From Phycisphaerales bacterium (GTDB lineage Bacteria; Planctomycetota; Phycisphaerae; Phycisphaerales; SM1A02): a stretch of 64,000 bases of DNA. The position numbers were made by a program, and so were the translations under genes. The notes under the pieces are model-generated. The model saw nothing but the letters and a program-made list of their open reading frames with translations, did no database searches and had not been told where the DNA came from. Below, in pieces: positions 18,660 through 37,506 of this stretch. Each line of letters starts with the position of its first letter. The stretch's first letter is position 1. The DNA lies in NCBI GenBank assembly GCA_022446795.1, contig JAKVBX010000002.1:51881-115880 (forward strand), written 5' to 3'.

Positions 18660-19211
18660 CTAGCTGGCATCCCCGAGGCGAACCAGCCGCTGATCCGGCC
18701 GACAGGACACGGGAGGCCCCCCATCGGCGGGCTGGAACCACCCCCGGATATTGACGACCAGCGAGGGCAGTGGTTCATTCCGAACGTCGCGGACATCCAG
18801 TTTGAACCGATACCCGGGCAGTCCGAACATCGTCGGGCCTTCGGACGCCTGAACCTCGGCTGACGTGAATCGCCAGATCATCGGCGGGAACGAGCCGCCC
18901 TCGTCGCGGGTCATGGGAATCGCTTCGAACACGAATTCGCCCGGAACGATGACGGGCTCCGGCCGAGGTTCGGCAAAGAGCACGACCGAGACACTGATGA
19001 TGTCCGCCTGGCCGTCGCCCTCGACATCCTCCGCCTTGGGCCCCACGATCAGCGTCATTCGATTGGGACGGGCATCCCGGATGACCTTCATGATCTCGGG
19101 CTTGGGACGGGGTGGCGTGAGACGCCGCGGGGTGGTCCGCTGGGTCTCCTCGCATCCGACCAGCACCGTCACGGCCGAGAGCGCTACCGCCAACGCGAGG
19201 CTCCGAATCAC
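18660..19211 (-). CDS. lipoprotein coupled to the giant secretin gene, pilotin candidate
   Basis: 183 residues beginning with a lipoprotein signal (LALAVALSAVTVLVGC, lipobox LVGC, Cys at residue 20). The mature part has a Pro/Arg-rich linker, then a beta-rich domain (VEGDGQADIISVSVVLF, RFKLDVRDV, SLVVNIRGWF). No family recognised. Its GTG start overlaps the gspD stop as GTGA (19208-19211), so the two are translated together. Secretins often need a small outer-membrane lipoprotein (pilotin) for insertion and assembly. By position this is the best candidate, but sequence similarity to known pilotins is not evident. Confidence 0.75.
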   Translation of the reverse strand: MIRSLALAVALSAVTVLVGCEETQRTTPRRLTPPRPKPEIMKVIRDARPNRMTLIVGPKAEDVEGDGQADIISVSVVLFAEPRPEPVIVPGEFVFEAIPMTRDEGGSFPPMIWRFTSAEVQASEGPTMFGLPGYRFKLDVRDVRNEPLPSLVVNIRGWFQPADGGPPVSCRPDQRLVRLGDAS

Positions 19212-22200
19212 TCGTCACCCCGTGGCGAATCCGATTCACCGGCATCCTTCGGCGGAACCAGCCCCTCGGTCTCATCCGCTTCCATGAGGTCCTTCAACTC
19301 GAGTCGGTAATTGTCTCGCTTGAAGATGCCCTCCCGCTCCAACTGACCGGCCTTGATCTTGTCGCGGAGGTTCTCAGGCAACGGAAGCGTGTCGATCTGC
19401 GCGGTCGTCAGGTCGTCGATCCGGCTCCTGTCGGCGGGACTCGTGATGACGTGAGGTGTCAGGACGATGATCAACTCCGTCCGCCTCAGATCCTGCCGCT
19501 CGCCGCGGAACAGGAATCCGATCAGGGGGAGATCCCCGAGCAGTGGAATCGACTCCTCGGTGTACTCGTAGCTCTCCTCGATCAGGCCGCCCAGGATGAT
19601 CGTCTGCCCATCCGCGACGGTGACCGTCGTGTCCGCCGTCCGCTGGAGGATCCGGGGCGTCTGCACGCCGACCGCCGGCTCATCCGTCTGATCCAGGACC
19701 CGGGACAGGGTCGGGTTCACGTCGAGTCGAACGAAGCCGTCGGGATTGATCGATGGCGTGACGTTCAGGAGGACACCCGTTTCCTTGGCCTCCAGTGGAA
19801 CACTGATGACACCGGTGTCGAAGGTCTGGGAGGACGTGGGCACGTAGATCGTCTCGCCCACGTTGATCGTCGCCTGCTCGTTGTTCGCCGTCATGATGGA
19901 CGGATTGCTCAGGAGATTGAAGCGCCCCTGCGTCTCCAGCGCCTTGAGCATCACGTCGAAATCACTGGAGGCAACCGTCAATGTCGGTGCGCCCATGGCC
20001 ATCGAGCCCACGAGATCGTAGACGCCTCCCAGTGATACGGTTCCGATCGAACCAGAAGCGTCCACGCTGACACCCCAGTCGAAGCCACCCTCGAGCGTGA
20101 CCTCCGCCAGCATCAGCTGGATGAGCACCTGTGGCGGGTCAACATCCAGTTGCTGGATGACGGATTCGATCCGCTCCATGTAGCGAGGGCTTGTCGAAAC
20201 GAGAACCGTGTTCGACTTCTGGTCGCCGCGGATGGTGATCTCACGTTCCAGCAAGCGAGCGGCCGACCCCAGTTGGTCGCCGCCGAGTGTCTGAACAAGC
20301 TTCCGCTGTTCTTCCTCGACGAACTCGCCAAGAACCGTAGCAACGTTCTCGGCGGTGGCATTGCGGAGCTGGTACACGATGGTCTCGCGCTCATTGGCCT
20401 CCAGCTCGTCGAGTTCCGTCACGACCTCTTCGACCAGTTCCAGGTAGGCCGGACTGCCCGAGACGAGCAGGCTGTTGGTTCGGCTGTCCACCGTGATCGC
20501 CAACTGCTGCCGCGGATCCGGAACGGCCGTCAGTTCCGTCCCGCCCACGACGTTCTCCGCCATGGGCGCCAGGCCCTCGGCGACGGGCATCACACCAGCC
20601 AACTGATCGCGTGGCTTGAGGACGAGCAGGTCCTCGCCTTCATCGAGACGGAAGAGATCCATCAGGACCTCTCGCATCGCCATGGCGTCGGCATTCTTCA
20701 ACTTGAAGATCCGGATGTTCTTGGAGCCCTCGGAGGAATCGTCGAGGTCGCGGATCATGCGACCGATCAGTTCCATGGATTCACGAGGTGCCCGGACGAT
20801 GACCGTGTTGGTCCGAATGTCCGGCGTGAGGCTGATGGACTCCCGCAACGCGGCACTCACCTGGAATTCGGTGTCGCCGATGGCGTCCTCGATTTCCCGG
20901 ACGTACCGAAGCACGGTGGTCTGCTGTGTCGTCCGCCGCCTGGCACCGATGCCACGGCCGGAAAGGACGTCCTCGATCAGCCGGACCGTCTCCAGCGAGT
21001 TGGCGGACTTCAGCGGGAAGTGCCGGATCTCGATCACGAAGGCGGGCTTGGCACCGTCAAGGCGAACGACCAGGCTGCGCAGCGCGGCGATGTCCGACTG
21101 CGGCGCGCTGATCAGGATCGAATTGAGCCGGGGCTCCGCGGACACGCGGACCGTTCCAGACCCACGGTTCCGGTTGGCTTCCTCGACGTACAGATCATTC
21201 AGTACCCCCACGAGTTCCTCGGCGGAACTGCCCCGGAGCGCCAGCACCTCGAACTCCCGACCGGCCGTCGTGTCCGCCTCGGCCTGAACCAGCAGGGCCA
21301 CCATCTCCCGGACGATGACCAGGTTCTCCTGGCTTGCCGCAACGATGAGACTGTTACTCGCGGATTCCGCCGTCACCGAGACGCGATCGGAGGCGGTCGC
21401 GGCCTCACCGAGAGACTGCTGGCGATCACGCATCAACTGCTGCAGGCGAGGGGCCAGTCGATCGGCATTGGAGCCGGAAGCCACGGGGACCACGTGAAGA
21501 TCAACGGCCTGGGCGATGGGCGTTGCCATCAGCTGCTTGACCAGTTCCTGGATCGAGGCCAGGTCCTCCGGATCCGCGGAAACAAGCAGGCTGCTCGTCC
21601 GGGGATCCGTCAGGATCAACGGCTGACGCCGGTTCTTGAGTTGGCCGGGCATGTCCGCGTACCGACGTTCCATGATTGCGTTGATGGCGGAGGCGAGGCG
21701 ATCCGGGTTGGAATCCCCCACGCCGACGACTTCGACGAGAGCATTCTCCAGGACGTTGGCCTCGTCCATCTGCTCGACGAGCATCTGGATGACGTCGTAC
21801 GACTCGTTGCCCGCGGCGATGACGAGCGTGTTGGTGCGATCATCCGGGATGATCGTGGCCCGTTGCAGATCAGCCGTCTCGGGCTCGACCAGCCGCAGTC
21901 GCTCCACGCGGGCATCCATCAGTCGCTGCACGACGTCTGCCAGGCGTGCGGCCGATGCGTGAGTGACCGACAGTCGACGGATTTCCTGCAAGTCAGCATT
22001 CATTTCCGTATCGAGGGCTTCGAGCAGACTCTCGACGATCGCGAAGCTCCGGGCACTTGTCGTCACGACCAGTGCATTCGTTCGTTCATCGGACTGGATG
22101 ATGACCCGATCTTCCTTGCGGATCACACCGGAAGAGACCTGCTCACGGAACAGCAACTCGATCGTCGTCGACAATCGTGCCGCAGACGCATGCTCCACCG

Positions 22201-25200
22201 GGTAGATGCGAACCGTCGAGGCCGGCGAAGCCGCCTCGACGTCCAGCATGGCAACCAGTTCGCTCACGAGGTCGAGATTGACCGGGGTGCCCACGAGCAT
22301 CAAGGCCCGCATCTGCGACTGGGGCTCGATGATCAACTGGTGCATGGGCTGGAACACCTGCGACTCGATGACGCGGGACGTTTCCATTCGGGCCATGCGG
22401 AGCCGTCCAACCTGGCGCTGCAGGGGACCTGCCTGGGGCAGGTCCGTGGCGCCCTCGACCAGGACACGGTTCAACGTCTGGGCAATGTCCTCGGCATCGG
22501 CCCAGGTCAACGAGACCAATCGAGGCTCGACCCAACCGGCCTGAAGATCGGAGTCCAATCGTTCCGAAATCACCTCGACGGCGGCGACCGAATCTTCCTT
22601 GCCCGCGATCACCACGGTGTTGGTTCGATCGTCAACGGCGATGGCGACCTCATCGAGCAGCGCCCGCCCAAGCGTTCCGGCCGGAACACCGGCCACGTCG
22701 CCACCGGGCACATTGCCAAGCGCCTTGCCTTCTTCGAAGAGCGTCCGGATGATCCGGGCGAAGTCCTCCGCGGGGATGTTCTCCAGCGGGAACATGCGGA
22801 CAATGACCGTATCGGTCACGGGAAGCTGGTCGAGGATGCCGACCAGGTCCACCACGGCCGAGACGTTTGCACGGGTCGAGCTCACGAGCAGGGCATTGCG
22901 GGTCTCGTGCGCAATCACGCGGATGGGTTGCGTGAGGTCCAGTCCCAGGTCCGATTGGTTGATGCCGTCCTGCTTGACGCTGAGCCGGCGAATCTGCTCC
23001 TGCACGGCCTTGGCCATCGGCGTATCAACCTGCTGCGCTCCCGGCGAGAGGATCTCGGACAGCAGGTCCGCGATGACGTCCGCTTCCGCGTTGCGGAGCA
23101 GCACGACCCGCATCTCCGCGGTGGCCAGTTCCGGCTCGGCATCCAACGCCTTGAAGATTCCGGTGATCGTCTTCTCATCCGCGGGCGAGGCCACGACGAC
23201 GACGGCCCGGCGGCCCCGCATCGGTGACACCCGGATGGGTTCACCCAGCAGCCGCATCACGGACCCCTCGTCCTGTGGCTTGTCCAGGCCGATGGTACGA
23301 ATCACGCGAATCGCTTCCTGCGGATCGACGTGTTCCAACTCGATGATGAAGATGCCCAGCCCCGAGGCGGGTGCCAGGTCATCCAGTTGCAGAACGGTGT
23401 CCTTGATTTCCTCGACCAGTTCCGCGGTCGCCGCAACGACGAGGCTGTTCGTCGCCGAGTCCACTTCCACCTGCAGGGCCGCATCAAGCGCCTCTGCACG
23501 GGTTTCGTAGGTGCCGCGAATCGCATCAGCGACCCGGGCGGCGGGTGCGTTCTCCAGGCGAATGACATGGACCCCCATGCCGCCATCGTCACCGTGATCC
23601 TCGATGGCCTTGGCCAACGCCATGATCTGGAGGAAGTCCGCCTCCGGTGCCCGGACGATGAGCGTCGACGATTCGACATCACCGACGATTCGCAGGTTGA
23701 CCCGGCCCTCGCGGCCCGGGGTCTCGTACAACGTCCGAACCGACTCGGCCAGTTGCTCGGGGTTGGCCGTTCGAACCGGGATCACCCGGGCCGGCGGCAA
23801 GCCGGCGTGATCCGCCTTGTCCAGTTGGGCCACGATCGTCTCGATCTTGAGCAGGGTCTTGCGCGACGCCGACACGACGACGGAGTTGGTCAGCGGTTCG
23901 GCCGACGCCCGCACCCAGTCCTCGGCCTGGACCAGGACGGTCGGTGTCTCGACGTCCTGCCGCGACCCTTCGCGACCATTGCCGCCGCGATTGTTTTCCG
24001 GGGCCTTCTGTCCACCACGCCGAACCTGCTGCTGGAAGGCATCGTTGATCGCCCTCGCCACGGAAACCGCATCCGCATAGGTCAACGGGATGACCTTCAA
24101 CTGCAGCGCAGCATCGTATTCCTCGGCATCCAGTTCCTTGATCAGGGCGTTCAGCGCCTCCCACTCCTGCTCCTCGGCGGAGATCACGAGGCTGTTGGTC
24201 GCGGGATCGGCCACGATCCGGACATTCAGCTTGGAGGGCGTATCCGCATCAAGCGCCAGCGGTCCGTAGAAGACCGTCAGGGCCTGGCGAACCTTCTCCG
24301 CCTCGGCAAACTCCAGCGGGATGAACTTCGTGCTTCGATCCACCGATGACGGCTGATCGAACTCGTCCACGATCATCTCGATCTGCTTGAACTGATCCGG
24401 CGTCGCCGAAACGATCAGTTGGTTCTCCATCCGGTTGTAGGTCACGCGCGGACTGGGGTCCCCCATCGTCGGAAGAATGTCATACAGGTTCCAACGGACA
24501 TCCTCCGCCAGGGCGTGCTCCAGTTGGAAGATCCGGTACTCGACCTGGACGGCCGCCGGTTCTTCATCCAACTGTCGAATGAGCGCCTCGATGACCGGCA
24601 GGGAATCCTCGGTCGCCGTGACCACCAGGCTGTTCGAGCGGGCATCCGCCACGACACGGGCATGCACTTCAACCGCCGGCTGATCCGGCTCAAGCCGAAC
24701 CGCGACACCTCGCGCCTCGCCCGAGTCGTCCAGTTGCAGGGTCTCTCGCAGGATGTCGACCACATCACCGGCTCTTGCACCGTCCAGTGCAAAGGTACGG
24801 ATGATGGTCTCGTCTTCCGCTGCGCGGGTGTCCAACTGGGCGATGAGTGCTCGCACCTGCTCCAGCTCCCGGGTCGGGGCATTGAGAACCAGGCTCCGGG
24901 TCTGCGGCACCGTGGTCACCATGACCTGATTCGCACCGCGGCGACCGAACTGCTCCCGCAGGATGCCGGCGATCACCGCGACCTCGCCGTCCTTGATCGT
25001 GACGATCTCGATCGTGCGATCACCGGAGGCGTCCTCGACATCCACCTTGCTGATGATGTCCTTGAGCAGTGGAAGTTCATCCGCCGGACCCGAGAGAATG
25101 ATGCTGTTGGAGGTCCGGCTCGCGATCACCATCGTGCCGCTGTCACTTCCACTGGCATCATCGCGTTGGCGGACGAAACGCTCGAGAATGTTCTCCAGCT

Positions 25201-28200
25201 CGGCGGCCTCTGCGTACTTCACCGGCAGCACGAGGACGTCAGCAGACGATCCCGCCAGTTCCAATTCCAGTTCGTCAACCAGTGCCGCAATGGCCGCGTG
25301 CTTGGCGGCGGGAGCCGCCACGATCAGTGCCCGCCGGGGCTCATCGGCCATCACATCGACATCCGTTGACGTCGGCGGCTGCCACCAGCGACGCGTTCCC
25401 GTGCCGTGCAACCCCTCGACGACGTCCTCGAGCATCTGCACCGGGACGTTCTCGACGCGATAGACCTTGAGCGTCCGCTCCGCATCCGCGGACTTCTCCG
25501 CATCCATGATGTCCACGATCCGCTCGACCATCTCGACCGAGTTGGGCGTACCCGAGACGATCAGGGCATTGAGTCGGCTGTCCGGGTAGATCGCCATGCG
25601 ACCCTGCAGTTGCCGACGGGATTCGCTGGCGTACCACCACGGGCTCTGGCCGGTTTCCAACTGAGCCACCATCTCCTGGACGGTCTCGGCAATCTCGGCG
25701 GCGTTGGCGTTCTCCAGCGGGATCGCCCGGATGTCGAGCGACTCGGCGGCCTGCGGACTGTCGAACTGCTTGACCAGTTTCTCCACCTGGTCGAAATCCT
25801 CGTCCGAGGCCGAGACCAGGAGCAGCCTGGTCGCGGGGTTCCCGACAATGGTCACTCGTCGGCCCGCTTCGCGTGCTCGATTGCCACCAGCGCGACCGAG
25901 TCGTGCCCGGTCATCGAACAACCGCTGGAGGGACTCGGCGATCTGCATCACGTCGGCCCGCTCCACGGTCAGGGTCCGGACATCAAAGTCGTTGGTCGGG
26001 TCGCGATCAATCTCCGCAAGGACCAGGTTGATCTCGTCCATGGTGCCCTTGTCGGCGCGGACCAGGATGGTCCCCGAGGCATCGTCCGCAACGATCACGG
26101 CGGACAGTCGGCGGGCCGGGTTCACACCGAAGACGACCTCGTCCAGCAGCTTGGCGGCACGCGACGGTGTCGCTGATTTCAGAACCACTGATCGCAATGG
26201 CAGCGAAGCGTCCTTGACCGGCTGGTCAAGCTGCTCCAGGAGTTGCTCGACTTCCTTGAGATGCTGCGGCGATGCGGTCACCAGGAGCATGTTGGTGCGC
26301 TGGTCGGCTCCGAACTCCGGCTCCATGAACTGCTGGCCACTCGTCGACCGACGCTGGTCTCGATGCCGGGCTCGGAAGATCCGGCCAAGGGTGTTGCCCA
26401 GTTCGGCCGCGCGAGCATGATTGACCTTGAACAGCTTCAGCGTGGCCACCTGGGACACCGGAGACTGGTCGATCAGTTCAATGAACTTGTCGATGAACTC
26501 GACAGCCTCGGACGGCGCCATCACGATGATGGCATTGCTTGCTCCGTCACCGATGACCGAGACCATGTCCGGTCGGAAGATCGCCTCGACCGCCGTCTCG
26601 TCACCGAGCGTTCGCAACGCCAATGATCGCATCCGCGAGGCCTGCTGCCCGCGACGGCGGGCGTCACCCTGGAGCAGCCCCTGGACGCTTCGCACGGCCT
26701 GGTCGCTCGAGATGGATGACAGCGGGTAGGACTTGACGACCGTTGCTCCACCAGCACTCCCCCGGGCCAGCGCACTGATGAGATCACCGATCATCCTGAA
26801 GTCCGCATCGTTGCAGACCAGGACCAGGGCATTGTCCCGCTCGTCAGCGACGACCGAGGTTCGCTTCAGGAGATCGCCCCGGGTACCACCCGGGGGGCTC
26901 ATCTGGTTCATCGTCTGGCGAAGCATCTGGGCCAGTGACGCGGCATCAGCGGATCCGCCCAGTTCAATCCGGCGAACCGTGCCCGCGGCTGCGGGCATCT
27001 GCTGAACAAGTTGTTCCAGGACGGCACGAGCCCGCTTGACCGCTCGATCCGAGCCGACGATCACCAGGCTGTTCGTTGCCGGATCAACCGCAACGGAGAT
27101 ATCCGGCTCCACGTCCGCGGCCTCCTGGAAGGTCGTCCGGAACGACCAGGTCCCCAGGGCCATCGACAGCAGGGAAAGGTGAAGTGGACGAGGGCCGATA
27201 CGGCCCTGGTCGGAGGTGTCCTCCCTGGAAGGCGAGTGCAGCAGGTCTTCCAGTTTGATGACCTCGACTCGACTACCGCCACCACGATCGAGCATCCGTC
27301 GGAGGGACTCAGCGACGTCGGCGGCGGACCCTCGAGCGGGGTCGATCGGGACGAGGTGAACCTGTCGACTGGTCCCCAGCGTTGCGGCATCGACATCGCG
27401 GACAACGTCTCGAATCCGGGACAGTTGGTTCTCGTCGCCACGCACGAGCAGGGTGTTGCTCGAGCCATCAACGCGAACCGTGGGCGGATCGGCGGTTCCC
27501 GACTCGGCGAACAGCGCGTCCAGGCTGGCCGCCAGCTCGCGGGCATCGGCATTGCGGACCTGCATCACGGCCACGCGACGAAGCGCCGCCGTATGAACCG
27601 TTGATGGATCCACATCCAGTTGCGAGACCATCTGCTCGGCCACCGCCAGGATCGCTGGTGTCGCCGCAACGACCACGGCATTCAGACGCGGATCCGCAAC
27701 GACCCGGACGTCATTCGCCTCGGGCATCGGCACGCCGCGGCGGGAACTGAACCAGGCCATGTTGGGGTCGACATCTTCAACGAGCAGCTGTTCGACGATG
27801 GGCGCGACACGTTCCGCTCTGGCGTGCTGAAGGTAGACGGTTCGAACCTGCGTCTGGTCCGGCGCCAGTCCGTCATCGAGACGGGCCACGAGGCCGCGGA
27901 GATCATCGATCTGTTGCGGTGTGCCCGTAACAATGATGGCATTGCCCGACGGCTGGGCCGATACGGCTGGCCGGGGTTCGCCGGGACGCAGACGGGCCCT
28001 CGCCTCGATCGACTCATTGAGCGTCTTGGCGACCTCGGTGGCCTGGGCCTGCTGCAGCGCGATGACCTGAACGTCGATCGCGGTGGCGTTTTCCATCGGG
28101 CGGTCCAACTCATCCAGCAGGTCCTTCGCGATTGCGACAACCGGCGCCGGAGCGCTGATGATGATCCGATTCGCCGGGGCATCCACGGTGACGTTGGGCT

Positions 28201-31200
28201 CCGGCACGGCTCGACCGCTTCGGGCCATCTGTTGCAGGTCGGCAGGCCATCGCTGGCGATCACGCAGCAGCGGCGTCAGGACCTGGGCAACCGTGCGGGC
28301 ATCTCCATGCTCCACCCGGAGGACCCGCAGTTCCACGCGTGGGGTGGGCGAGGCCTCGTTGTCCCAGGAGGCCAGGATCTTGATGGCCCGATCGACTTCG
28401 TCGGGCAGGCCCGTGACCACGACGGCACCGCTGAGCGGTTCAGCCGTCAGCACCAGTTCCGAGGCCGGTCCACCGGCCGAGGTCTCGTTCAGCAATCGCC
28501 GAACCGTGTCCGCCAGGGTCGGGGCATCGGTGTTGGCCGGGGTATAGGTCTTCCAGGTGTGCGAGGCGCGTTCATCGGGAACGTCAAGTTGCGTAATGAG
28601 GGTCTCGGCCAACGCGACGGTGCGGGCGGGACCCGAGACGATCAGGCTGTTGGTCCGGTTATCCGCTTCGACGCGAATCGGCGGCGTCAGGTCCACCTGG
28701 CCGCGGCTGCGCCGGATGCGTTCCATGATCAGGCGTGGATCACTAGCCTGTTGATCCGCCAGGAGTCGTTGCACGATCGGCGACAGTCGGCCGGCATCCG
28801 CATGCTTGAGGGCATACGTGCGGGCATTGATCGCGTCCATCGACGGCCGCGCATCAAGAGTCGCCACCAGCGTCTCCACCTGGTCCAGGTCCTCGGGCAG
28901 CCCCACCATGATCAGGGCATTGGCGCCGGGGCTGGCGATGAGTCGGGCATCGACCGGTTCGCCGGTCGTGGTGCTGGTCAGTTCGCGAAGGGCCGTGGAC
29001 AGGGAACTCGTGATCGAGCCGGCATCGGCGAAGTCCAGCGGGCGGATGCGGACGGCGTGCCGGGACCGAGCGGCAGCGGGTGTATCCAACTGCTCGATGA
29101 GGGTCTGGACCACCGGCATCAGCGCCGTGGGGGCCGAGATGATCAGGGTATTGGTCTTGTCATCGGCCGAGACATTGAGGAGCGACTCCAACGCGACCGT
29201 GCCACCGGGCAGTTCCTCACGCATGCGCACCAGCAGCACGTCTCGCAACGTGTTGGCCAGTCGCGTGGCATCGGCATGGTCCAGGGCGAAGAACCGAAGG
29301 GTGGTGACCGGGGCGGCCCGCTTGACGTCGAGCTCCTCCAGGACCTGCTCGACCTTGGGGAAGATGGCCGCGGGTCCCGACACGATGAGCGTGTGCGAGA
29401 CCGGCTCGGTGGTGATCGTGATGGTGCCGCGACGGTCACCCATGTCCTGGTTCAACGAGCCCGAGTCCGCCAGTTGCCGGAGGGTATTGGCCATGGCGGA
29501 CAGGTCGGCATGAACCGGCTGGTACGTCCGGACTTCGATCTCCTCGACGACCTTCTGCCGATCGAGTTGTTCCACCAGTTGCTCGAAACTCGCCATGCGG
29601 GCGACCGGTGCTTCGACAATCAACGAATTGGTCTGTGGGTCCGCTCGAACGACGACTTCTCGCGGCTCCTGCAGGTGCGGCATCGGTGTCCCTCGCCGAT
29701 CCTTGGGCATGGGCGGCTCGGGGAACATCTCGTCGATGGTCTGTCCCAACTCCTCCGCTCGGGCGACCCGAAGCGGGAAGATCCGGATCTCGCGGCCATC
29801 GCGGTCGATTCGATCAACCGTGTTGAGATTCGTGACGATCGTCTCGATTTCACCGACGACATCGGGATGCGCGGAGACGAAGAGCGAGTTGGTCGCAGGA
29901 TCGGCGGTGATCCGGACCGGCTGGGCCGTGCGATCCTGGACGGAGCGGGCGTCATACTGCTGGCTCAACGTACGGGCGAGGCCCGCGGCATCAGCCACCT
30001 GCAGTTGCAGAATGCGAAGCGGTGCCCGTTCGCCAGCTGACTGCACATCCAGTGACTGGACCAGGGTGCCGATCATCCGCTGCTGCTCATCGCTGCCGGA
30101 GACCACCAGCGTATTGGTGCGGTCAATGACATCGATGAACGGTGCCGGCCGACCACCGGAGCGAAGTAGTCCCTGCTCTTCGGCGGCAAACTGGGCCAGG
30201 TAGGACGCCACGTCGGCGGCCGAGGCGTGTCGCAATGGAATCATGCGAAGGTCGGGGACCGGGACCTCCAACTTCCGGAAGGTCGCGATGGCCTGTTCGT
30301 AGCGGCTGACCGACTCGCGTGATCCACTGACCAGCAGACGGCCGGTCTGCGCATCCGCTTCGATGTCCGGCATCGGAAGACCGGGATCTCCCCGGAGGTT
30401 CTCCCAGGCGGTTCGTGCCCGGGCCATGATCTCGCCGAGGTCCTGGACATCGGAAACATCGATGACCTGGACACGGAAATCAGACGGGTCACGCTGATCG
30501 AGCGTCTTGACCAGTTGGTCGATCATCTTCAATTGCCTTGGTGATCCCGACACGACCAGGATGTCCAAGGTGTCAATGGCCTCGATCCGAGGCGGCTCCG
30601 TCTCCGCTCCACCCAGGTTCGGCATCATCTGGGCCACCATGGTCTTCAGTGGTTGCACCAGGCTTGAGGGCGCAGCCGCCGTCACGCGGTATTGCCGCGT
30701 CTCCTGCTGCAGCGGGTAGTGCTCGGACACGAGATCCACCATCTCGATCCAGGACTCCACCTCGCGTCGGGGCCCCACGAGCGTCACCACGCGGCCATCA
30801 TCGGAAGTCGTCAACGTCAGTCGACTGTCCTCCTTGAGCCGCTGGCCATGCAACTGGTTGGCCGCCTCGACCAGGCCCGCCGGATCAACGGCACCAGGGC
30901 CATCCAGGCGGACCATCCGGACCTCCTGCTCGACCCCATCGGCCCGATCCAGGACCGGGATGATCTGGCCCACTGCCGTGACGTCATCCGCCGGGCCGGA
31001 CATCAGCAAGCTGCGGCCATCGGGCCCGCTTACGAGCCGGACCAGGCTCTTCTGCCGCTGGTTCAGGAGCCCCTCGAGGGCCTTGATGACGGACCCGGGG
31101 TCGGCCTGCTCCAGCGGGACGGCCTCCAGGACCAGTCCGGCGGAGGCCTCGACCGAGATCCCGCCATCGAGTTCGTTGAGCAGTTGAACGCCCTCGTCGA

Positions 31201-32242
31201 CGAGGCCCCGCTCCCCCACGATCGTCACGGCGGGCTCATCCGCGCGAGGCATGATCACGGGACGACGGGCCTCGGGCAGTCGCCCGAAGACTTCCGTCAA
31301 CCGCTTCTTCGCATCATTGGGTGACATTGTCGCCAGGCCGACGGTGCGCACACTGCGGCCGGCACTCGATGACACGTCAAGGACCGCGATGATCTCCTTC
31401 AACTTGTCGAGCGATGGTCGTGGACCCTTGCCGATGATCGAGTTCGTCCGAACATCCGCGGCGAGATTCAGACCGGAGAGTGACTCCTCCTCGACCTTCC
31501 GAAGGTTGCCCTTCTTGTCCGGCATGTACTTGACGACCTTCGTCATCAGCAGTGCCTTGAGTGGTTCCATCAGGTCGACGGCGGACGTGTTCTTGACGGG
31601 CACGACCTCGACCAGCGCGTCGGGCGCCTGCTGATCGAGTTCCGAGATGATCATGAGCAACCGCCGTACCTGCGCCGCGGTCTCCGTGATGACGATCGAG
31701 TTCTGGCCAGGCATCGAGGTGACCGAGCCGTACGCCGCGACCAACTGCGCGAGTCGTTCGGCAAGCGCCTGCGCCGAGGCCGACTCCAATGGCCGGACGA
31801 CGGTGACCACCTGGTCGGGCGTGATGTCAGTCGGGATCTCGCCGATGAAGGTCGGCACGTTCTCGCGCTGCATCTCGGTGAGCTTCTGGAGGTACAGCAT
31901 GTCATCCTCGACGCGCAGCATGACGCCGCGCGACTGCAGAATGACATTGAGGACACTCAGCCCCTCGTCGAGGTCATAGGTCTCCGGGGACAGGAAGTCG
32001 AGCGTGCCCTCGGGTGTGCCCGTCTCCTGGATGACGGGCTTGCCCGTCGCGCGCGAGAAGTAGTCGAGCACCTGGTCGAAGGAGGCACCCTTGAAATTGA
32101 ATTGAAGAGTGACCGCCTCGGGTGCTGCCTCAGCAGAACCTGGGTCGGACTCCTGGCCCAAGGCTGTTGCAAAGCTCGCGAGGAGCAAGGCCGCCGCTAG
32201 CACGACTCTTCTCCCCGCCGCGCGACCGGAAATGCCGCTCAT
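19208..32242 (-). CDS. gspD: giant type II secretion secretin with about 47 Secretin_N modules
   Basis: 4344 residues. A signal peptide (residues 10-30) is followed by an N0/STN domain at about 45-115 (FNFKGASFDQVLDYFSR). From about residue 135 to 4037 I count some 47 tandem modules of ~83 residues. Each runs A-x-x-L-A-x-x-L, a variable loop, then a strand like 'ADxRTNSLIVSG', and a helix ending 'I-x-x-L-I-x-x-L-D'. They are clearly homologous but strongly diverged. The C-terminal secretin barrel domain begins near 4038 (LIQLMLAEVTLEGGFDWGVS) and is complete: NVTPSINPDG, TVTVADGQTIILGGL, IPLLGDLPLIGFLFR, LIIVLTPHVI. A 75-residue charged tail follows. Typical GspD is about 650-750 residues with three N-modules. 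Preceded by a good Shine-Dalgarno (GGAGGG). No frameshift or stop interrupts the 13 kb frame. Confidence 0.95.
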   Translation of the reverse strand: MSGISGRAAGRRVVLAAALLLASFATALGQESDPGSAEAAPEAVTLQFNFKGASFDQVLDYFSRATGKPVIQETGTPEGTLDFLSPETYDLDEGLSVLNVILQSRGVMLRVEDDMLYLQKLTEMQRENVPTFIGEIPTDITPDQVVTVVRPLESASAQALAERLAQLVAAYGSVTSMPGQNSIVITETAAQVRRLLMIISELDQQAPDALVEVVPVKNTSAVDLMEPLKALLMTKVVKYMPDKKGNLRKVEEESLSGLNLAADVRTNSIIGKGPRPSLDKLKEIIAVLDVSSSAGRSVRTVGLATMSPNDAKKRLTEVFGRLPEARRPVIMPRADEPAVTIVGERGLVDEGVQLLNELDGGISVEASAGLVLEAVPLEQADPGSVIKALEGLLNQRQKSLVRLVSGPDGRSLLMSGPADDVTAVGQIIPVLDRADGVEQEVRMVRLDGPGAVDPAGLVEAANQLHGQRLKEDSRLTLTTSDDGRVVTLVGPRREVESWIEMVDLVSEHYPLQQETRQYRVTAAAPSSLVQPLKTMVAQMMPNLGGAETEPPRIEAIDTLDILVVSGSPRQLKMIDQLVKTLDQRDPSDFRVQVIDVSDVQDLGEIMARARTAWENLRGDPGLPMPDIEADAQTGRLLVSGSRESVSRYEQAIATFRKLEVPVPDLRMIPLRHASAADVASYLAQFAAEEQGLLRSGGRPAPFIDVIDRTNTLVVSGSDEQQRMIGTLVQSLDVQSAGERAPLRILQLQVADAAGLARTLSQQYDARSVQDRTAQPVRITADPATNSLFVSAHPDVVGEIETIVTNLNTVDRIDRDGREIRIFPLRVARAEELGQTIDEMFPEPPMPKDRRGTPMPHLQEPREVVVRADPQTNSLIVEAPVARMASFEQLVEQLDRQKVVEEIEVRTYQPVHADLSAMANTLRQLADSGSLNQDMGDRRGTITITTEPVSHTLIVSGPAAIFPKVEQVLEELDVKRAAPVTTLRFFALDHADATRLANTLRDVLLVRMREELPGGTVALESLLNVSADDKTNTLIISAPTALMPVVQTLIEQLDTPAAARSRHAVRIRPLDFADAGSITSSLSTALRELTSTTTGEPVDARLIASPGANALIMVGLPEDLDQVETLVATLDARPSMDAINARTYALKHADAGRLSPIVQRLLADQQASDPRLIMERIRRSRGQVDLTPPIRVEADNRTNSLIVSGPARTVALAETLITQLDVPDERASHTWKTYTPANTDAPTLADTVRRLLNETSAGGPASELVLTAEPLSGAVVVTGLPDEVDRAIKILASWDNEASPTPRVELRVLRVEHGDARTVAQVLTPLLRDRQRWPADLQQMARSGRAVPEPNVTVDAPANRIIISAPAPVVAIAKDLLDELDRPMENATAIDVQVIALQQAQATEVAKTLNESIEARARLRPGEPRPAVSAQPSGNAIIVTGTPQQIDDLRGLVARLDDGLAPDQTQVRTVYLQHARAERVAPIVEQLLVEDVDPNMAWFSSRRGVPMPEANDVRVVADPRLNAVVVAATPAILAVAEQMVSQLDVDPSTVHTAALRRVAVMQVRNADARELAASLDALFAESGTADPPTVRVDGSSNTLLVRGDENQLSRIRDVVRDVDAATLGTSRQVHLVPIDPARGSAADVAESLRRMLDRGGGSRVEVIKLEDLLHSPSREDTSDQGRIGPRPLHLSLLSMALGTWSFRTTFQEAADVEPDISVAVDPATNSLVIVGSDRAVKRARAVLEQLVQQMPAAAGTVRRIELGGSADAASLAQMLRQTMNQMSPPGGTRGDLLKRTSVVADERDNALVLVCNDADFRMIGDLISALARGSAGGATVVKSYPLSSISSDQAVRSVQGLLQGDARRRGQQASRMRSLALRTLGDETAVEAIFRPDMVSVIGDGASNAIIVMAPSEAVEFIDKFIELIDQSPVSQVATLKLFKVNHARAAELGNTLGRIFRARHRDQRRSTSGQQFMEPEFGADQRTNMLLVTASPQHLKEVEQLLEQLDQPVKDASLPLRSVVLKSATPSRAAKLLDEVVFGVNPARRLSAVIVADDASGTILVRADKGTMDEINLVLAEIDRDPTNDFDVRTLTVERADVMQIAESLQRLFDDRARLGRAGGNRAREAGRRVTIVGNPATRLLLVSASDEDFDQVEKLVKQFDSPQAAESLDIRAIPLENANAAEIAETVQEMVAQLETGQSPWWYASESRRQLQGRMAIYPDSRLNALIVSGTPNSVEMVERIVDIMDAEKSADAERTLKVYRVENVPVQMLEDVVEGLHGTGTRRWWQPPTSTDVDVMADEPRRALIVAAPAAKHAAIAALVDELELELAGSSADVLVLPVKYAEAAELENILERFVRQRDDASGSDSGTMVIASRTSNSIILSGPADELPLLKDIISKVDVEDASGDRTIEIVTIKDGEVAVIAGILREQFGRRGANQVMVTTVPQTRSLVLNAPTRELEQVRALIAQLDTRAAEDETIIRTFALDGARAGDVVDILRETLQLDDSGEARGVAVRLEPDQPAVEVHARVVADARSNSLVVTATEDSLPVIEALIRQLDEEPAAVQVEYRIFQLEHALAEDVRWNLYDILPTMGDPSPRVTYNRMENQLIVSATPDQFKQIEMIVDEFDQPSSVDRSTKFIPLEFAEAEKVRQALTVFYGPLALDADTPSKLNVRIVADPATNSLVISAEEQEWEALNALIKELDAEEYDAALQLKVIPLTYADAVSVARAINDAFQQQVRRGGQKAPENNRGGNGREGSRQDVETPTVLVQAEDWVRASAEPLTNSVVVSASRKTLLKIETIVAQLDKADHAGLPPARVIPVRTANPEQLAESVRTLYETPGREGRVNLRIVGDVESSTLIVRAPEADFLQIMALAKAIEDHGDDGGMGVHVIRLENAPAARVADAIRGTYETRAEALDAALQVEVDSATNSLVVAATAELVEEIKDTVLQLDDLAPASGLGIFIIELEHVDPQEAIRVIRTIGLDKPQDEGSVMRLLGEPIRVSPMRGRRAVVVVASPADEKTITGIFKALDAEPELATAEMRVVLLRNAEADVIADLLSEILSPGAQQVDTPMAKAVQEQIRRLSVKQDGINQSDLGLDLTQPIRVIAHETRNALLVSSTRANVSAVVDLVGILDQLPVTDTVIVRMFPLENIPAEDFARIIRTLFEEGKALGNVPGGDVAGVPAGTLGRALLDEVAIAVDDRTNTVVIAGKEDSVAAVEVISERLDSDLQAGWVEPRLVSLTWADAEDIAQTLNRVLVEGATDLPQAGPLQRQVGRLRMARMETSRVIESQVFQPMHQLIIEPQSQMRALMLVGTPVNLDLVSELVAMLDVEAASPASTVRIYPVEHASAARLSTTIELLFREQVSSGVIRKEDRVIIQSDERTNALVVTTSARSFAIVESLLEALDTEMNADLQEIRRLSVTHASAARLADVVQRLMDARVERLRLVEPETADLQRATIIPDDRTNTLVIAAGNESYDVIQMLVEQMDEANVLENALVEVVGVGDSNPDRLASAINAIMERRYADMPGQLKNRRQPLILTDPRTSSLLVSADPEDLASIQELVKQLMATPIAQAVDLHVVPVASGSNADRLAPRLQQLMRDRQQSLGEAATASDRVSVTAESASNSLIVAASQENLVIVREMVALLVQAEADTTAGREFEVLALRGSSAEELVGVLNDLYVEEANRNRGSGTVRVSAEPRLNSILISAPQSDIAALRSLVVRLDGAKPAFVIEIRHFPLKSANSLETVRLIEDVLSGRGIGARRRTTQQTTVLRYVREIEDAIGDTEFQVSAALRESISLTPDIRTNTVIVRAPRESMELIGRMIRDLDDSSEGSKNIRIFKLKNADAMAMREVLMDLFRLDEGEDLLVLKPRDQLAGVMPVAEGLAPMAENVVGGTELTAVPDPRQQLAITVDSRTNSLLVSGSPAYLELVEEVVTELDELEANERETIVYQLRNATAENVATVLGEFVEEEQRKLVQTLGGDQLGSAARLLEREITIRGDQKSNTVLVSTSPRYMERIESVIQQLDVDPPQVLIQLMLAEVTLEGGFDWGVSVDASGSIGTVSLGGVYDLVGSMAMGAPTLTVASSDFDVMLKALETQGRFNLLSNPSIMTANNEQATINVGETIYVPTSSQTFDTGVISVPLEAKETGVLLNVTPSINPDGFVRLDVNPTLSRVLDQTDEPAVGVQTPRILQRTADTTVTVADGQTIILGGLIEESYEYTEESIPLLGDLPLIGFLFRGERQDLRRTELIIVLTPHVITSPADRSRIDDLTTAQIDTLPLPENLRDKIKAGQLEREGIFKRDNYRLELKDLMEADETEGLVPPKDAGESDSPRGDE

Positions 32243-32291: not shown

Positions 32292-33245
32292 CTACTTGTG
32301 AACGGGCGCCGTGTCCTTGACCAACTCTCCAACCCGGATCGAAACCACGGTTTCCCCGGACCGAAAGGCCGCCTGATCCCCCTCGATGGCCTCCAGGACC
32401 ATCCCATCGTGGCGATCACCGATCATCAGCCGTCTTGTCCGGCCCGATTTCAGGTTGCGAATCCAGACCTCGGCCTGGCTCCCGATACCCGCGACACCGG
32501 TCATCTGCCACTTCGGAGGATCGGGCTTGGGCCTGGGCTTGGGCTTGGGTGACGGCGCGGTCGCCACCGGAGTCGGCGCCGCGGGAATCAGGAATGGACT
32601 CCGGGATGCCAGTTCAGACAGGGCCGCGCGACGGTCATCCGTCCACGTGTCCGCGGGTGGAGTCTCCGGTGATCGACCGGGAATGAAGAGCGTCGTCAAC
32701 CGGATCGTGACCTGCAGTTGAGACTTGTCGGTGGCCGCACGCACACGGACACCTTCGATCTTCTTGATCCAGGCGTCGACCATCAGTCGGTCGATCAACT
32801 CGAGAAGTCCGCTCCAGGTCGTGGTTCCCGACAACGTGCCTTCCACTTCCACGAAGTCGACTTCTTCACGCCATCGTCGGCCGGTCGAGCCCTTGAAATC
32901 GGAACGGCCCGGTGACAACAGCGTCACGCTGCGACCGGTCCCCACCGACAACCCCTTCAATCCGACGGACTCGCCCAGTCGATTGAGTCGACTCCGCAGG
33001 CGATGGTCAACCTCTTCCAGCGTCCGACCGAGCGTGCGTATCACGTACCCATCGGTTTCCTGCTGCAGATCGTCAGACCCATCAATCGCGTCCTGGTAGG
33101 TCGCGACTGATTTCTGAAGAGAGGTCAATCGACTGCGCAACTTCTCCGCCGGTGACCACCAGAAGGACTGCATCAAGGTCCACAGCAGCCACGCGGCAAC
33201 CACCACGGCGACAATACCCAGGATCAGGCGAGTGCGCTGTGACAT
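32292..33245 (-). CDS. fused GspM/PilO-like and GspC/PilP-like assembly protein
   Basis: 317 residues. One N-terminal membrane helix (LILGIVAVVVAAWLLWTLM) is followed by a coiled coil and a ferredoxin-like region at about 95-215, the arrangement of GspM/PilO. A Pro/Lys-rich linker (PSPKPKPRPKPDPPK) leads to a C-terminal domain at about 248-312 (WQMTGVAGIGSQAEVWIRNL ... MIGDRHDGMVLEAI ... VVSIRVGELV). That domain has the strand pattern of the GspC HR domain / PilP, the part that binds N0 of the secretin. One protein thus seems to do two jobs that are separate genes in the standard operon. Its ATG overlaps the gspL stop by one base (TGATG). Confidence 0.8.
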   Translation of the reverse strand: MSQRTRLILGIVAVVVAAWLLWTLMQSFWWSPAEKLRSRLTSLQKSVATYQDAIDGSDDLQQETDGYVIRTLGRTLEEVDHRLRSRLNRLGESVGLKGLSVGTGRSVTLLSPGRSDFKGSTGRRWREEVDFVEVEGTLSGTTTWSGLLELIDRLMVDAWIKKIEGVRVRAATDKSQLQVTIRLTTLFIPGRSPETPPADTWTDDRRAALSELASRSPFLIPAAPTPVATAPSPKPKPRPKPDPPKWQMTGVAGIGSQAEVWIRNLKSGRTRRLMIGDRHDGMVLEAIEGDQAAFRSGETVVSIRVGELVKDTAPVHK

Positions 33246-34738
33246 CAGGGCGTCGCCTCCGCGTCATCCCCGGTTGTCATCGGATCTGCCGTGGCGGAAC
33301 GCAGTCGATAGGTAAATCCATATGGCAGTCGACTGCCGCCGCCGGCGTCATTCCCGGCGCTCGATGTCGTATACGTGGACGCTTCAACGAGTCGTTCCCG
33401 GAACGAGTCGGCAATGGCGCGATCGCGTGACTCACCGTTGATCGTCAGTCCCACCTGCCAATCCGCCGACCAATCGCGTCCCTTGCGATCGAACTCAACA
33501 CCGTCGAACACCAAGGTCCCGGTGATCTCGTCCAGGACCAGGTCGGTGACCTCTGGCCGCATCACATCCAGCTGCCGGAGGTGGGCCAGCCAGTTGACAT
33601 CGGCCGACTCCCAGAGATCCAGGTGCACCTTTCGGTAGGTCTCCCGCATGAAACCGAAGTACTCCGGGCGGAGGGTCCCGTACCGGGTCTCCATCGCCTT
33701 GACCTGGGCCTCCAGCCGCCGGGTCGTCAGGTTCCCGATCGTCCAGATCAGGAGAACCACCAGGAAGAACCCCGCCAGGGCGGCCAGGGCCAGCCGCCGG
33801 CGACCCGCCATGGGGTCCGGGGCCTTCCGCGGCGACGCGAAATCGACGATCGGACGCCCGGTCGCCTGGGCCAGCAACAACCCGGCCAGCGACCAGTGGC
33901 GATCCAGTTGGTGCTCCCGCGATTCGATCCGCGGATGGGTATCCAGCAGTTCCATCGGGGTCTTGAGCAGGCCGCCGACCCTGGCCGCAACCCGGTCGAC
34001 CACGCCGCCCGGGCCCAGCACGACGCCCGAGTCCACGCCGGCCTGATCATCATCCATCTGTCGGCTCAACCAGGTTCGTTGTGCTTCACGGACCGCGGCG
34101 CCGACCATGGCTTCCTCGTCCACCTCCGCGATCCGGGCGGCTCGGCTGAACCTCACCCGTCCACCCCGGGTGAACGTGAACTCGATCCCATCCCCGGGGA
34201 TCAGGTCGATCGCAACGATGTCCGCCTCCGGATCCGCAGTCGACTCCGCGACGGCGGCAGCGCCGAACGTCCGGAGGGAAACACCCTGCATCACGAGGCC
34301 TGCGGCGTTCATCATCCGCCGTGTTCGATCCAGCGCTTCACCAGGCAATGCCGCGGCCAACACGGTGGTTGACGCTTCCGTTGTCTCCAGGACCACGAAA
34401 TCAATGACCGCATCCTCGGATTCGAACGGCAGGCCCCGCTCCATGGACAACTGGGTCATGTCGGGCAGTTCATCAAGGTCGTCCGTGGGGTGAACGATGC
34501 GCTTGAGCACGACCTCCTCGCGAGGCAACGCGACGATGCATCGATCACGACGGAACCCGGCCTGGCGCAATTGATCGCCGAGCCATCGGCCTGCCGCCTC
34601 CGGCTCGCTGCGGTCCAGCTGCTCGGGAATGTCGCTCACGTGCGTCCGCACGATTCGGATGCCGTGTCGCGTCGAGACCGCCGCCACGGCTCGAAGCCGC
34701 GCTGATCCCAGTTCGACGGCCACCCAGCCGTTGCTCAC
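33245..34738 (-). CDS. gspL: type II secretion GspL / PilM-PilN-like protein
   Basis: 497 residues from the chosen GTG. A cytoplasmic actin-like part comes first (WVAVELGSARLRAVAAV, CIVALPREEVVLKRI), as in PilM/GspL. One membrane helix at about 346-367 (ALAGFFLVVLLIWTIGNL) and a periplasmic PilN-like segment follow. It couples the ATPase ring to the inner-membrane platform. The open frame runs back into gspK to 34957 with an Arg/His-rich non-native sequence. The GTG at 34738 is preferred because GGAGG lies seven bases before it and the actin-like fold starts there. Confidence 0.86.
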   Translation of the reverse strand: MSNGWVAVELGSARLRAVAAVSTRHGIRIVRTHVSDIPEQLDRSEPEAAGRWLGDQLRQAGFRRDRCIVALPREEVVLKRIVHPTDDLDELPDMTQLSMERGLPFESEDAVIDFVVLETTEASTTVLAAALPGEALDRTRRMMNAAGLVMQGVSLRTFGAAAVAESTADPEADIVAIDLIPGDGIEFTFTRGGRVRFSRAARIAEVDEEAMVGAAVREAQRTWLSRQMDDDQAGVDSGVVLGPGGVVDRVAARVGGLLKTPMELLDTHPRIESREHQLDRHWSLAGLLLAQATGRPIVDFASPRKAPDPMAGRRRLALAALAGFFLVVLLIWTIGNLTTRRLEAQVKAMETRYGTLRPEYFGFMRETYRKVHLDLWESADVNWLAHLRQLDVMRPEVTDLVLDEITGTLVFDGVEFDRKGRDWSADWQVGLTINGESRDRAIADSFRERLVEASTYTTSSAGNDAGGGSRLPYGFTYRLRSATADPMTTGDDAEATP

Positions 34739-34823
34739 GCGTGATCCTCCATGACCTGACGCTTCACCCAGATCGTACTCGCCCATGGCCCGTGGGAACG
34801 GGCGAACCGGTAAAGGGCGGTGA

Positions 34824-36335
34824 TCATGGAATCCACCGTCCGACCCGTGGTGTTCCCGTGTCCGGCGCTGCCACGGGCGGTCCAGGCGACTCGGCCGGTT
34901 CATCCGCCGGCCATGGTGTCTCCTCGATCGGTGGCTCGATCTCGAGCATCCCGTCACCGGCGGGGCCCAACATGTCCTCCAGGAGATCCGATGTCGACAT
35001 CAGGTCATCCAGGTCAGCCAGTTCGGATTCAACCGGGTCCGGCTCGATGGCGGCGGCCACCTCGGCCTCGAGTTCAAGCGCGGCCGCCAGCGTCGACGCC
35101 GTCTGCAGCATCGTGATTTCGCGCAGGTAGCCCAGGCGTGGTCGAGGGTCGGCCAGGTCGATGACCGCCTCGTACACCACCGCGTGTTCAATGGGACCGT
35201 CGGGATCGTCCGCCGCAACAGTGCCCGCCGCGATTCTCACTCGCCAGGTCCAGGACCGAACGGTCACCAGGCCCGCCAGTTGTTCGTAGTCGTCCCCCGT
35301 GAGGATGTCACGAGTCAGGGGCCACACGACGGTGGCGCGTTCAGACGCATCAAGCGATTCCCGCTCGGCCACGATGCGATCCGCCAGGGACTGGTCGACA
35401 CCCGGCAGCGATTCCAGGGCCTCCGCCGATGCCGTGTTGAGATCGAGTCGACCGGCCACGTGAACATCCGGAATCGTGGTGAGTGCATCCAGGGGCTCGA
35501 CCCAGTCCTCCGGTGGTACCCGGAAGCCACGAAGCACGCGGACGATCTGGGCATCCTCGTCGAAGGAGGTCTCCTTGAAGATCTGCTCCAGGGCGCGAGC
35601 AGCCCCGTCGCCGAAGCGCTCGGTGACACGTTCCGCCAGTTCATCCGACCACGGAACATTCAGGTCGATCCGTCGCTTCCCGCTCTGCTGCAGGTTGGGC
35701 TCGAACCCATACACCGTCAGGACATCGGACAACCCACGCGGCTGGGGGCCAACGAGTCGAGCTTCGACCCGCTCCGCGAGGTCGCCCTCCTCGCCCAATG
35801 CCTGATCCATCGACCGCTCATCCGCCAGGTCACCCAGCAGGTCCGTCACATCGATGCCCTCGATGGCCAGCAACTCATAGATGCTGTTGAACCGGGCCCC
35901 GGGCCGGGTTGCACGAGCGGCCACGATGGCCTCCGCCTGGCTCAACGTCAGCATCGGCAGCGATGCGAGCATCTCCGCGGTCGCGTGATTGATGTCGACC
36001 CGCCCCGCCTCCGCCACCAGGCGACTGCCGTCGGGGCCATGCGGAAGCAGTCGAACGACTGCTTCGCGATCACCGTCGTCCCACAGGGAATACTGGTCCT
36101 CGACCGTCGGCATTCCACCAGACAGCAGAACGTCACGTTGCTCGACCAGGACGTCGGAGAGCAACCGAAGGCCCGAGAGGCCCAGGGACCGATGCTGCGT
36201 CCGCGACATGGTGACCTCGGCCGACCGGACATCCGACTGCATCAGGAACAGCAGGCTGGTCGCCACCCACAATCCGCTGATTCCGGCGATCAGCACGGCC
36301 ACGATCACGAAGCCCCGGCGTCGTTCGTGCCTCAT
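34824..36335 (-). CDS. gspK: minor pseudopilin GspK
   Basis: 503 residues, longer than the usual ~330. The prepilin signal RRGF / VIVAVLIAGISGLWVA lacks the Glu at position 5, as is normal for GspK, which caps the pseudopilus tip. Repeated helix-hairpin-helix-like segments are visible (GRVDINHATAEMLASLPM, GRLDLNTASAEALESLPG). The last 100 residues are Pro/Glu-rich. The ATG overlaps the gspJ stop as ATGA. Confidence 0.88.
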   Translation of the reverse strand: MRHERRRGFVIVAVLIAGISGLWVATSLLFLMQSDVRSAEVTMSRTQHRSLGLSGLRLLSDVLVEQRDVLLSGGMPTVEDQYSLWDDGDREAVVRLLPHGPDGSRLVAEAGRVDINHATAEMLASLPMLTLSQAEAIVAARATRPGARFNSIYELLAIEGIDVTDLLGDLADERSMDQALGEEGDLAERVEARLVGPQPRGLSDVLTVYGFEPNLQQSGKRRIDLNVPWSDELAERVTERFGDGAARALEQIFKETSFDEDAQIVRVLRGFRVPPEDWVEPLDALTTIPDVHVAGRLDLNTASAEALESLPGVDQSLADRIVAERESLDASERATVVWPLTRDILTGDDYEQLAGLVTVRSWTWRVRIAAGTVAADDPDGPIEHAVVYEAVIDLADPRPRLGYLREITMLQTASTLAAALELEAEVAAAIEPDPVESELADLDDLMSTSDLLEDMLGPAGDGMLEIEPPIEETPWPADEPAESPGPPVAAPDTGTPRVGRWIP

Positions 36336-37036: not shown

Positions 37037-37506
37037 GGTTCGAGCCCCTCATCGACCGGCAGCGGGATATCCATGGGGAGGTCACGCATCATCTCGTCCT
37101 CTTCCCATTCCTCTTCACCACCGTCGCGCAAGGCGACCAGCTCCCGGAGAACGAAGCGAGCCGGCAGATCAACGCCGTCCTCCTCGACCGTCAGCGTCAC
37201 GACCGTCAGGCGGGGCCGCAACGATGGACGCGTCCGCACCTCGATCCGCCACTGTCCGATCGTCATCAAGCGATCGTCATCACGGTCTTCACCGAAGACG
37301 CTTCCATCACGCAGGTCAGCGAGCGACAGCACGCCCGCCTGCAACTGGGCCATCGCCGATCGAGCCAGGTCCGCCGCAACCAGTCGACGCTCGGTTCGAT
37401 CCAGGGCATCGACGGCATCGGACGTGGCCCGCACGCAGAAGGCTGCCGCCGCCACGAAGATCGCGATCGAAACCAGCACTTCCAGCAGCAGCGCACCGCG
37501 CCTCAT
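37033..37506 (-). CDS. gspI: minor pseudopilin GspI-like
   Basis: 157 residues. The prepilin leader is very short (MRRG) before ALLLEVLVSIAIFVAAAAF, with Glu at +5. The head domain (WRIEVRTRPSLRPRLTVVTLTVEE) matches the GspI pattern, and GspI initiates the tip complex with J and K. The ATG overlaps the gspH stop (ATGA). Confidence 0.82.
   Translation of the reverse strand: MRRGALLLEVLVSIAIFVAAAAFCVRATSDAVDALDRTERRLVAADLARSAMAQLQAGVLSLADLRDGSVFGEDRDDDRLMTIGQWRIEVRTRPSLRPRLTVVTLTVEEDGVDLPARFVLRELVALRDGGEEEWEEDEMMRDLPMDIPLPVDEGLEP

Follow-up and report, generated by a model that had tools for sequence, protein, structure and literature searches.

Results

The giant gspD locus

The window analyzed here, a stretch of 64,000 nucleotides from a Phycisphaerales bacterium (SM1A02; assembly GCA_022446795.1, contig JAKVBX010000002.1, positions 51,881-115,880, forward strand), carries a co-directional cluster of type II secretion system (T2SS) genes on its minus strand. 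The cluster runs from gspF to gspM and is closed by a giant gspD gene (19208..32242), downstream of which lies a putative lipoprotein gene. Giant gspD encodes a predicted secretin of 4344 aa with 0 internal stops (minus strand, 32242..19208); a first-pass annotation of the same stretch had likewise read one 13-kb frame without a break. Two long frames are also open on the opposite, plus strand, at 20150-23227 (1025 aa) and 27620-30040 (806 aa), and are probably a by-product of G+C-rich codons.

The predicted protein begins with a signal-peptide-like stretch assigned by eye (approximately residues 1-29; 32156..32242), followed by an N0-like domain (residues 48-107; 31922..32101), 47 tandem Secretin_N modules of the N1, KH-like type (residues 144-4037; 20132..31813) and a secretin barrel domain (residues 4101-4266; 19445..19942), all on the minus strand. 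The modules were located with Pfam and with our own HMM, and the barrel with Pfam and a structure model. In the Pfam search, 45 stretches matched Secretin_N (PF03958; 1331.8 bits in total), and the barrel matched Secretin (PF00263) with an E-value of 7.7e-50. Among NCBIfam families, TIGR02517 (type_II_gspD) ranked first, ahead of PilQ, SctC and others, and its best stretch (residues 3806-4273) covered positions 127-597 of a 600-position profile; the summed scores, 1221 bits for GspD vs 454 for PilQ, are inflated by the repeats. The frame is assigned to a GspD-type secretin of a T2SS, and the complete C-terminal secretin domain of this type described in the first-pass annotation was borne out. 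The N0/STN domain that it had placed ahead of the modules received weak support. The N0 family PF21305 (type_II_gspD_N0) matched residues 48-107 weakly (E 0.0097, below cut-off), as it did seven of eight relatives tested (E 4.8e-5 to 0.25, all below cut-off); the STN model gave no match in the Pfam search of the 4344-aa protein.

Upstream of gspD on the minus strand, gspF (38850..40043; T2SSF, E 5.1e-52), the major pseudopilin gene gspG (38212..38736; T2SSG, E 2e-20) and gspK (34824..36335; T2SSK, E 1.1e-9) were matched above cut-off. Weak matches were obtained for a gspJ-like minor pseudopilin gene (36332..37036, minus strand; T2SSJ, E 5.1e-6, and N_methyl), a GspL-like protein (33245..34957, minus strand; PilM_2, E 1.3e-5, below cut-off) and a GspM-like inner-membrane protein with a Pro-rich linker and a C-terminal HR-like domain (32292..33245, minus strand; T2SSM, E 0.0067). 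A gspH-like pseudopilin gene (37503..38474, minus strand) was recognized by N_methyl only and a gspI-like small pseudopilin gene (37033..37506, minus strand) by its position, an informative Pfam match being absent. Given that N_methyl sits at residues 96-117 of the gspH-like frame, the true start of this gene is probably downstream of the frame start; a start downstream of the frame start is also probable for the GspL-like gene. As candidates for the GspE ATPase of the system, the genome offers ten T2SSE matches, one of which is on the same contig (C12:17230-18381).

The putative lipoprotein gene (18660..19211, minus strand; 183 aa, lipobox assigned by eye, no Pfam match) overlaps the gspD stop by 4 bases, and its product is a candidate pilotin or other partner of giant GspD. 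Downstream of the cluster, at 16790-18508 on the minus strand, lies a frame for a 572-aa Met-rich protein of secreted appearance that has no Pfam match above cut-off. In the comparison of gene neighbourhoods that the first-pass annotation had proposed, lipoprotein homologues adjoined giant gspD in 30 of 31 loci and GspM-like homologues in 26 of 31, the search being limited to short flanks. Across 18 more distant loci, a GspM-like homologue was found in 11 (0 of the 5 loci of short-GspD type) and the lipoprotein in 8.

It is highly unlikely that the giant secretin belongs to a type IV pilus or to machinery for DNA uptake and not to a T2SS. The PilM_2 match of the GspL-like protein would suit such a role, as would the resemblance of HR-like domains to PilP described in PMC3169554, and several of the ten T2SSE-type ATPase matches could be pilus ATPases. 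However, GspF, G, J and K type genes adjoin giant gspD, the pilMNOPQ operon context is absent at this locus (the lone PilM_2 match being the GspL-like gene), and GspD scores well above PilQ, with the inflation noted above. Pili could, moreover, be served by two other secretins of this genome, with frames of 1012 aa (4 modules in the 770 aa read) and 695 aa (1 module).

An HR-like domain on GspM

The HR-like (GspC/GspB/PilP-type) domain of the GspM-like protein (approximately residues 246-305; 32331..32510, minus strand) was detected with hhalign. Here, comparison of the C-terminal domain with HR domains gave a Prob of 96.1, an E-value of 3e-9 and a score of 44.8, against a top score of 18.5 in 30 column shuffles. 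The 14 comparison domains were Pfam T2SSB or T2SSC matches in order-level relatives together with K-12 GspC; given this choice, the result indicates membership of the HR superfamily and not of GspC in particular, and the GspM encoded beside giant gspD is assigned an HR-type domain at that level. Alignment A4 comprises 16 of the 27 GspM-type sequences. In the HR-like domain of the 16 members, Pfam matched T2SSB once (E 5.4e-4) and T2SSC once (E 0.054), and a PDB profile search with the domain returned nothing credible; a clear HR match thus came from profile-profile comparison only, Pfam and PDB being weak or negative. T2SSC had no match at E <= 1 in this genome. In genomes of family f4, T2SSB matches directly adjoin the giant gene in five of six cases (E 0.002-0.14). 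In PulD/PulC and GspC/GspD, the HR domain binds N0 on the inner-membrane side of the secretin, according to PMC6882859 and PMC3169554.

Number and conservation of the modules

An iterative HMM built from giant GspD itself located 47 modules across residues 144-4037 (weakest i-E 8.7e-10), with a mean spacing of 82.9 residues, and 46 were counted in a larger joint search. The same HMM found 3 modules in E. coli K-12 GspD, 0 in reversed giant GspD and 0 in 20 of 20 shuffled sequences; with these controls, a chance ORF was ruled out. The first-pass annotation had claimed about 47 true N-modules and proposed that they be counted by HMM; with 45 (Pfam) to 47 found, and not a few, its figure is sustained.

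Identity among the copies averages 26% and reaches 42% at most, and the copies are evidently old, as had been proposed. Linkers between them are short, 43 of the 46 gaps measuring 1-9 residues. In six of six genome pairs from two genera (40-50 modules per pair), no module showed pN >= pS; dS is near saturation in three of these pairs, and hence the exact ratios are rough. The modules look to be kept by purifying selection. The earlier claim that selection also keeps the length holds in part: pN < pS applies to the modules in all six pairs, but exact length varies from 41 to 47 modules within the genus.

Predicted structure

The AlphaFold alignments took in 52 of 53 and 52 of 76 relatives, with a 53-row alignment for modules 30-36. 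The model of modules 30-36 contains an N-domain fold in every module (mean pLDDT 78.1), and its inter-module geometry is uncertain (pTM 0.33). GspD chains headed the list of solved structures compared with it: 5zdh (Z 12.4) superposed on 126 residues at 5.1 Å over two modules, 5w68 (Z 11.6) on 65 residues at 1.6 Å and 9k8v (Z 11.2) on 59 residues at 1.2 Å. Superpositions that span two modules are thus loose, at about 5 Å. A second model, of modules 45-47 with the barrel (pLDDT 72.3, pTM 0.48), aligned along the GspD N1-N2-N3-barrel order. Here, 6i1x gave a Z of 14.9 for 418 residues within model positions 1-567 at an rmsd of 11.3 Å, and the fit on GspD is loose overall (rmsd about 10-11 Å over about 400 residues).

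Distribution in Phycisphaerae

The first-pass annotation had also proposed a survey for secretins above 2000 residues. Within Phycisphaerae, a frame of >= 3000 aa was found in at least 105 of 396 sampled genomes (>= 90% completeness), a lower bound; the size tally covers 149 listed genomes, counts frames from stop to stop and leaves out a second G060 entry (855 aa). The giant-secretin trait spans much of the class. By family, frames of >= 3000 aa were tallied in 25 of 31 genomes of the family of this bacterium (f1), 44 of 46 in f2, 14 of 14 in f10, 8 of 12 in f91 and in others besides, and the longest frame is 5207 aa (G529, L191). A short size class of 1253-1908 aa also exists, f14 (19 tallied) and f11 (7) holding nothing longer; five such short GspD proteins that were read have 14-16 modules. 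No frame of 2000-2250 aa occurred among the 149 tallied genomes.

Related loci were sought by a profile search of genome contigs with a Phycisphaerales profile. Of 142 relatives, 79 loci were kept, from MAG records labelled Phycisphaerae or Phycisphaerales or bearing broader or doubtful labels, and one is a chromosome-level MAG (CP070772). A 3265-aa frame in G292 (L048:723-10517) was rejected as a giant secretin, since its 13 Secretin_N stretches are not accompanied by a secretin barrel within the frame. This genome belongs to another class of the same phylum, and the frame combines long low-complexity stretches with N-modules that have no channel domain.

The probability that the giant frame is an assembly artefact, a pseudogene or several joined genes is so slight as to be negligible. 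Some MAG copies are indeed interrupted or truncated at a contig end, examples being the frames of 1519, 1840 and 2431 aa. Open frames of 3333-5086 aa nevertheless occur in many independent genomes, some consisting of one contig, and unbroken frames of 4856, 4634, 4557, 4484, 4522 and 4933 aa are present in the one-contig genomes G014, G046, G337, G384, G535 and G567, respectively; for the class, assembly error was rejected on this ground. The number of genomes with frames of >= 3000 aa and the pN < pS of the modules likewise speak against an artefact.

In family f1, no close match to giant gspD was found in 34 of 65 sampled genomes, all of 1.8-2.9 Mb, and a few genomes of 2.0-2.8 Mb still carry the gene. 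Given that the gene is unseen in these 34 genomes, all <= 2.9 Mb, the distribution suggests an accessory system that is often lost on genome reduction. The small-genome f1 genera that lack a close giant match still carry one to three weaker secretin matches.

Evolution of the module array

Module order was compared among 34 giants, the comparison being confined to proteins of at least 30 modules. Thirty of the 34 are collinear with the present protein module by module, with 28-46 reciprocal-best modules in order at 39-77% identity. The number of modules ranges from 32 to 54 in an initial set of giants and from 29 to 54 over the four blocks described below, and differs even within the genus, in which this protein has 47, G003 has 46 and G002 and G005 have 41 each. 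G005 and G002 lack entire runs of modules, 13-16 and 28-29, and the length of the array evidently changes by whole-module blocks. Recent growth takes the form of block duplication, with copies two to five modules apart. In G529, modules 25-26 correspond to 27-28 at 87/82% identity, in the middle of a 49-module protein; in G041 (L075), modules 3-4 correspond to 5-6 at 70/83% identity, and G665 (L193), from the same family as G041, has no module pair above 50%. In f1/f2 and f5/f6/f89/f90, the most distinct of the recent block duplications are found in the N-terminal half.

Such gains and losses would be expected if in-frame block duplications became fixed by dependence on neighbouring modules, the extra length having no function of its own. 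The blocks that come and go in G005 and G002, the recent duplications in G529 and G041 and the 34 of 65 f1 genomes in which the gene is unseen all fit this neutral ratchet. We nevertheless consider it quite improbable: giants of several blocks occupy the same range of large sizes alongside a separate short class that persists, with the gap at 2000-2250 aa among the tallied genomes, and a 13-kb gene is costly to keep, with pN < pS in every module tested.

By module order, the giants fall into four blocks, f1/f2/f4 (29-48 collinear modules), f5/f6/f89/f90/f93 (19-33), f10 (28-33) and f91 (33-34). This comparison covered 26 of 55 proteins and did not take in, among others, G094 (1353 aa) and G292; G428 and G427, intermediate or lone proteins, fit no block. 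Between blocks, 6-16 modules are collinear; chance collinearity for 15 modules has a mean of 5.6 and a 99.9% level of 9. Given that the four blocks have little module order in common, the data suggest repeated expansion. When the short, 14-module GspD of G361 was mapped on giants, 11 of 11 modules were collinear on G337 (on modules 27-38 of 38), 11 of 12 on G041 (modules 29-43 of 43, with one outlier) and 9 of 9 on G535 (modules 28-36 of 36, with one outlier). On the present protein, 6 of 10 modules were collinear, which is not above chance (99.9% level 7). We infer, as the preferred history, an ancestor of 14-16 modules that gained its further N-terminal modules independently in four or more lineages. 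The alternative, a single ancient expansion of all giants followed by turnover, is not preferred; it retains some standing because some between-block pairs exceed chance, as do G000 and G443 (16 of 17 modules collinear; 99.9% chance level for 18 modules, 10).

The same mapping bears on how the giant protein might be built. The C-terminal 10-14 modules with the barrel could form a stacked-ring channel like that of the short GspD type, the N-terminal remainder reaching the inner-membrane platform as a tether, either flexible or folded back, as a cage or as a lattice for substrate binding. This mixed architecture would suit the placement of the short GspD on C-terminal modules in three of the four giants tested (G337, G041 and G535), the N-terminal position of the clearest duplications in f1/f2 and f5/f6/f89/f90, the lack of a confidently predicted inter-module orientation and the ordinary appearance of the other envelope machinery examined (see below). 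Against it, the short type maps on the present protein no better than chance, the clearest duplication within G529 is mid-protein (modules 25-28 of 49), the N-terminal modules hold their order across families within a block and have pN < pS, and linkers of 1-9 residues at 43 of 46 positions are unlike a loose tether. On balance, we regard this architecture as unlikely.

Other envelope proteins were searched for a ruler of a wide periplasm, and none was found: MlaD-type frames in eight genomes measured 328-552 aa, the two in the present genome being of 328 and 511 aa. A flagellar L-ring gene is present in this genome, and FlgH occurs in 49 of 60 class genomes. Like the two other secretins of this genome, with 4 and 1 modules in the parts read, these envelope proteins have an ordinary look, and none points to a uniformly very wide periplasm.

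Discussion

The reading that we prefer, with a slight lean in its favour, is that giant GspD is a T2SS secretin whose modules stack as rings into a very long tube between the inner and outer membranes. In this model, giant GspD would be the outer-membrane secretin, with its C-terminal barrel in the outer membrane and its N-terminal end held at the inner-membrane platform via the HR-like domain of GspM. About 15 subunits would assemble, each module contributing to one ring, and the rings would stack on the barrel. Should each of the 47 modules form a ring, as happens in PulD and Thermus PilQ, the conduit would measure roughly 120-190 nm with 2.5-4 nm assumed per ring, and 15 copies of 471 kDa would give an assembly of about 7 MDa. 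The periplasm crossed by the conduit would be wide, at least in places, and the pseudopilus (GspG-K) may push folded substrates along it. The modules nearest the outer membrane would be the older part, to which block duplication would have added a lineage-specific extension on the N-terminal side.

Several observations are consistent with a stacked tube: the domain identity, the module count with its controls, the structural matches to GspD chains, the T2SS cluster, the HR-like domain on GspM and the precedent of Thermus PilQ for stacked rings and a wide periplasm, together with the short linkers, pN < pS, collinearity with 30 of 34 giants, and the large size reached by four giant blocks with only partly common order. 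Other observations argue against it, namely the pTM of 0.33, the loose two-module superpositions, the weak N0 match, the PDB profile search in which the HR-like domain had no credible match, a module number that differs between members of the genus (47, 46, 41 and 41), other envelope proteins of ordinary size among those examined and a short GspD that maps on this protein no better than chance.

Taken further, Phycisphaerae may build the longest known secretion conduit, a homo-oligomer of ~7 MDa with 30-54 stacked rings and a length of >100 nm that arose >= 4 times, through duplication of blocks on the N-terminal side, from an ancestor of 14-16 modules and that bridges a very wide periplasm or a membrane invagination at the secretion site. 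We put this joint reading forward tentatively, as possible but somewhat doubtful; it is made less likely because the short GspD maps no better than chance on the present protein.

A secretin of 30-54 modules across a class, apparently enlarged repeatedly, would constitute an extreme test of how stacked-ring channels grow and would provide a molecular ruler of the periplasm in planctomycetes. If the modules stack, particles over 100 nm long are predicted in tomograms. Among the papers listed in searches of the PMC literature, none reported a giant or planctomycete secretin; most subscription journals lie outside this collection, so that an earlier mention elsewhere is possible.

The closest known relatives are GspD and PulD, with which the giant protein has in common the barrel, N1-type modules, a weak N0-like start, the gene context and an HR-type partner. 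It differs from known GspD in scale, its ring-forming modules outnumbering the usual complement more than tenfold: by the same HMM, K-12 GspD has 3 N1-type modules and the giant protein 47. PulD is 20 nm long, according to PMC6882859. The partner differs as well: GspD/PulD systems have a GspC-type partner, whereas the HR domain is here fused to GspM. Within Phycisphaerae, the short GspD proteins (f14, f11) lack the greater part of the giants' N-terminal modules; their C-terminal modules have the same order as those of the f10, f6 and f91 giants tested, but not above chance in the present protein.

The secretins described in the papers cited here have about three to six N-type rings. Thermus thermophilus PilQ resembles the giant protein in being a secretin with extra N-rings; it has six stacked rings, is 35 nm long and spans most of a wide periplasm of ~70 nm (PMC4463427 and PMC5745081), and it is called among the largest characterised secretins in PMC5745081. 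Thermus PilQ has 757 aa, with five N1-type rings and N0, and belongs to a type IV pilus, whereas giant GspD has 4344 aa and 47 N1-type modules and is encoded in a T2SS cluster.
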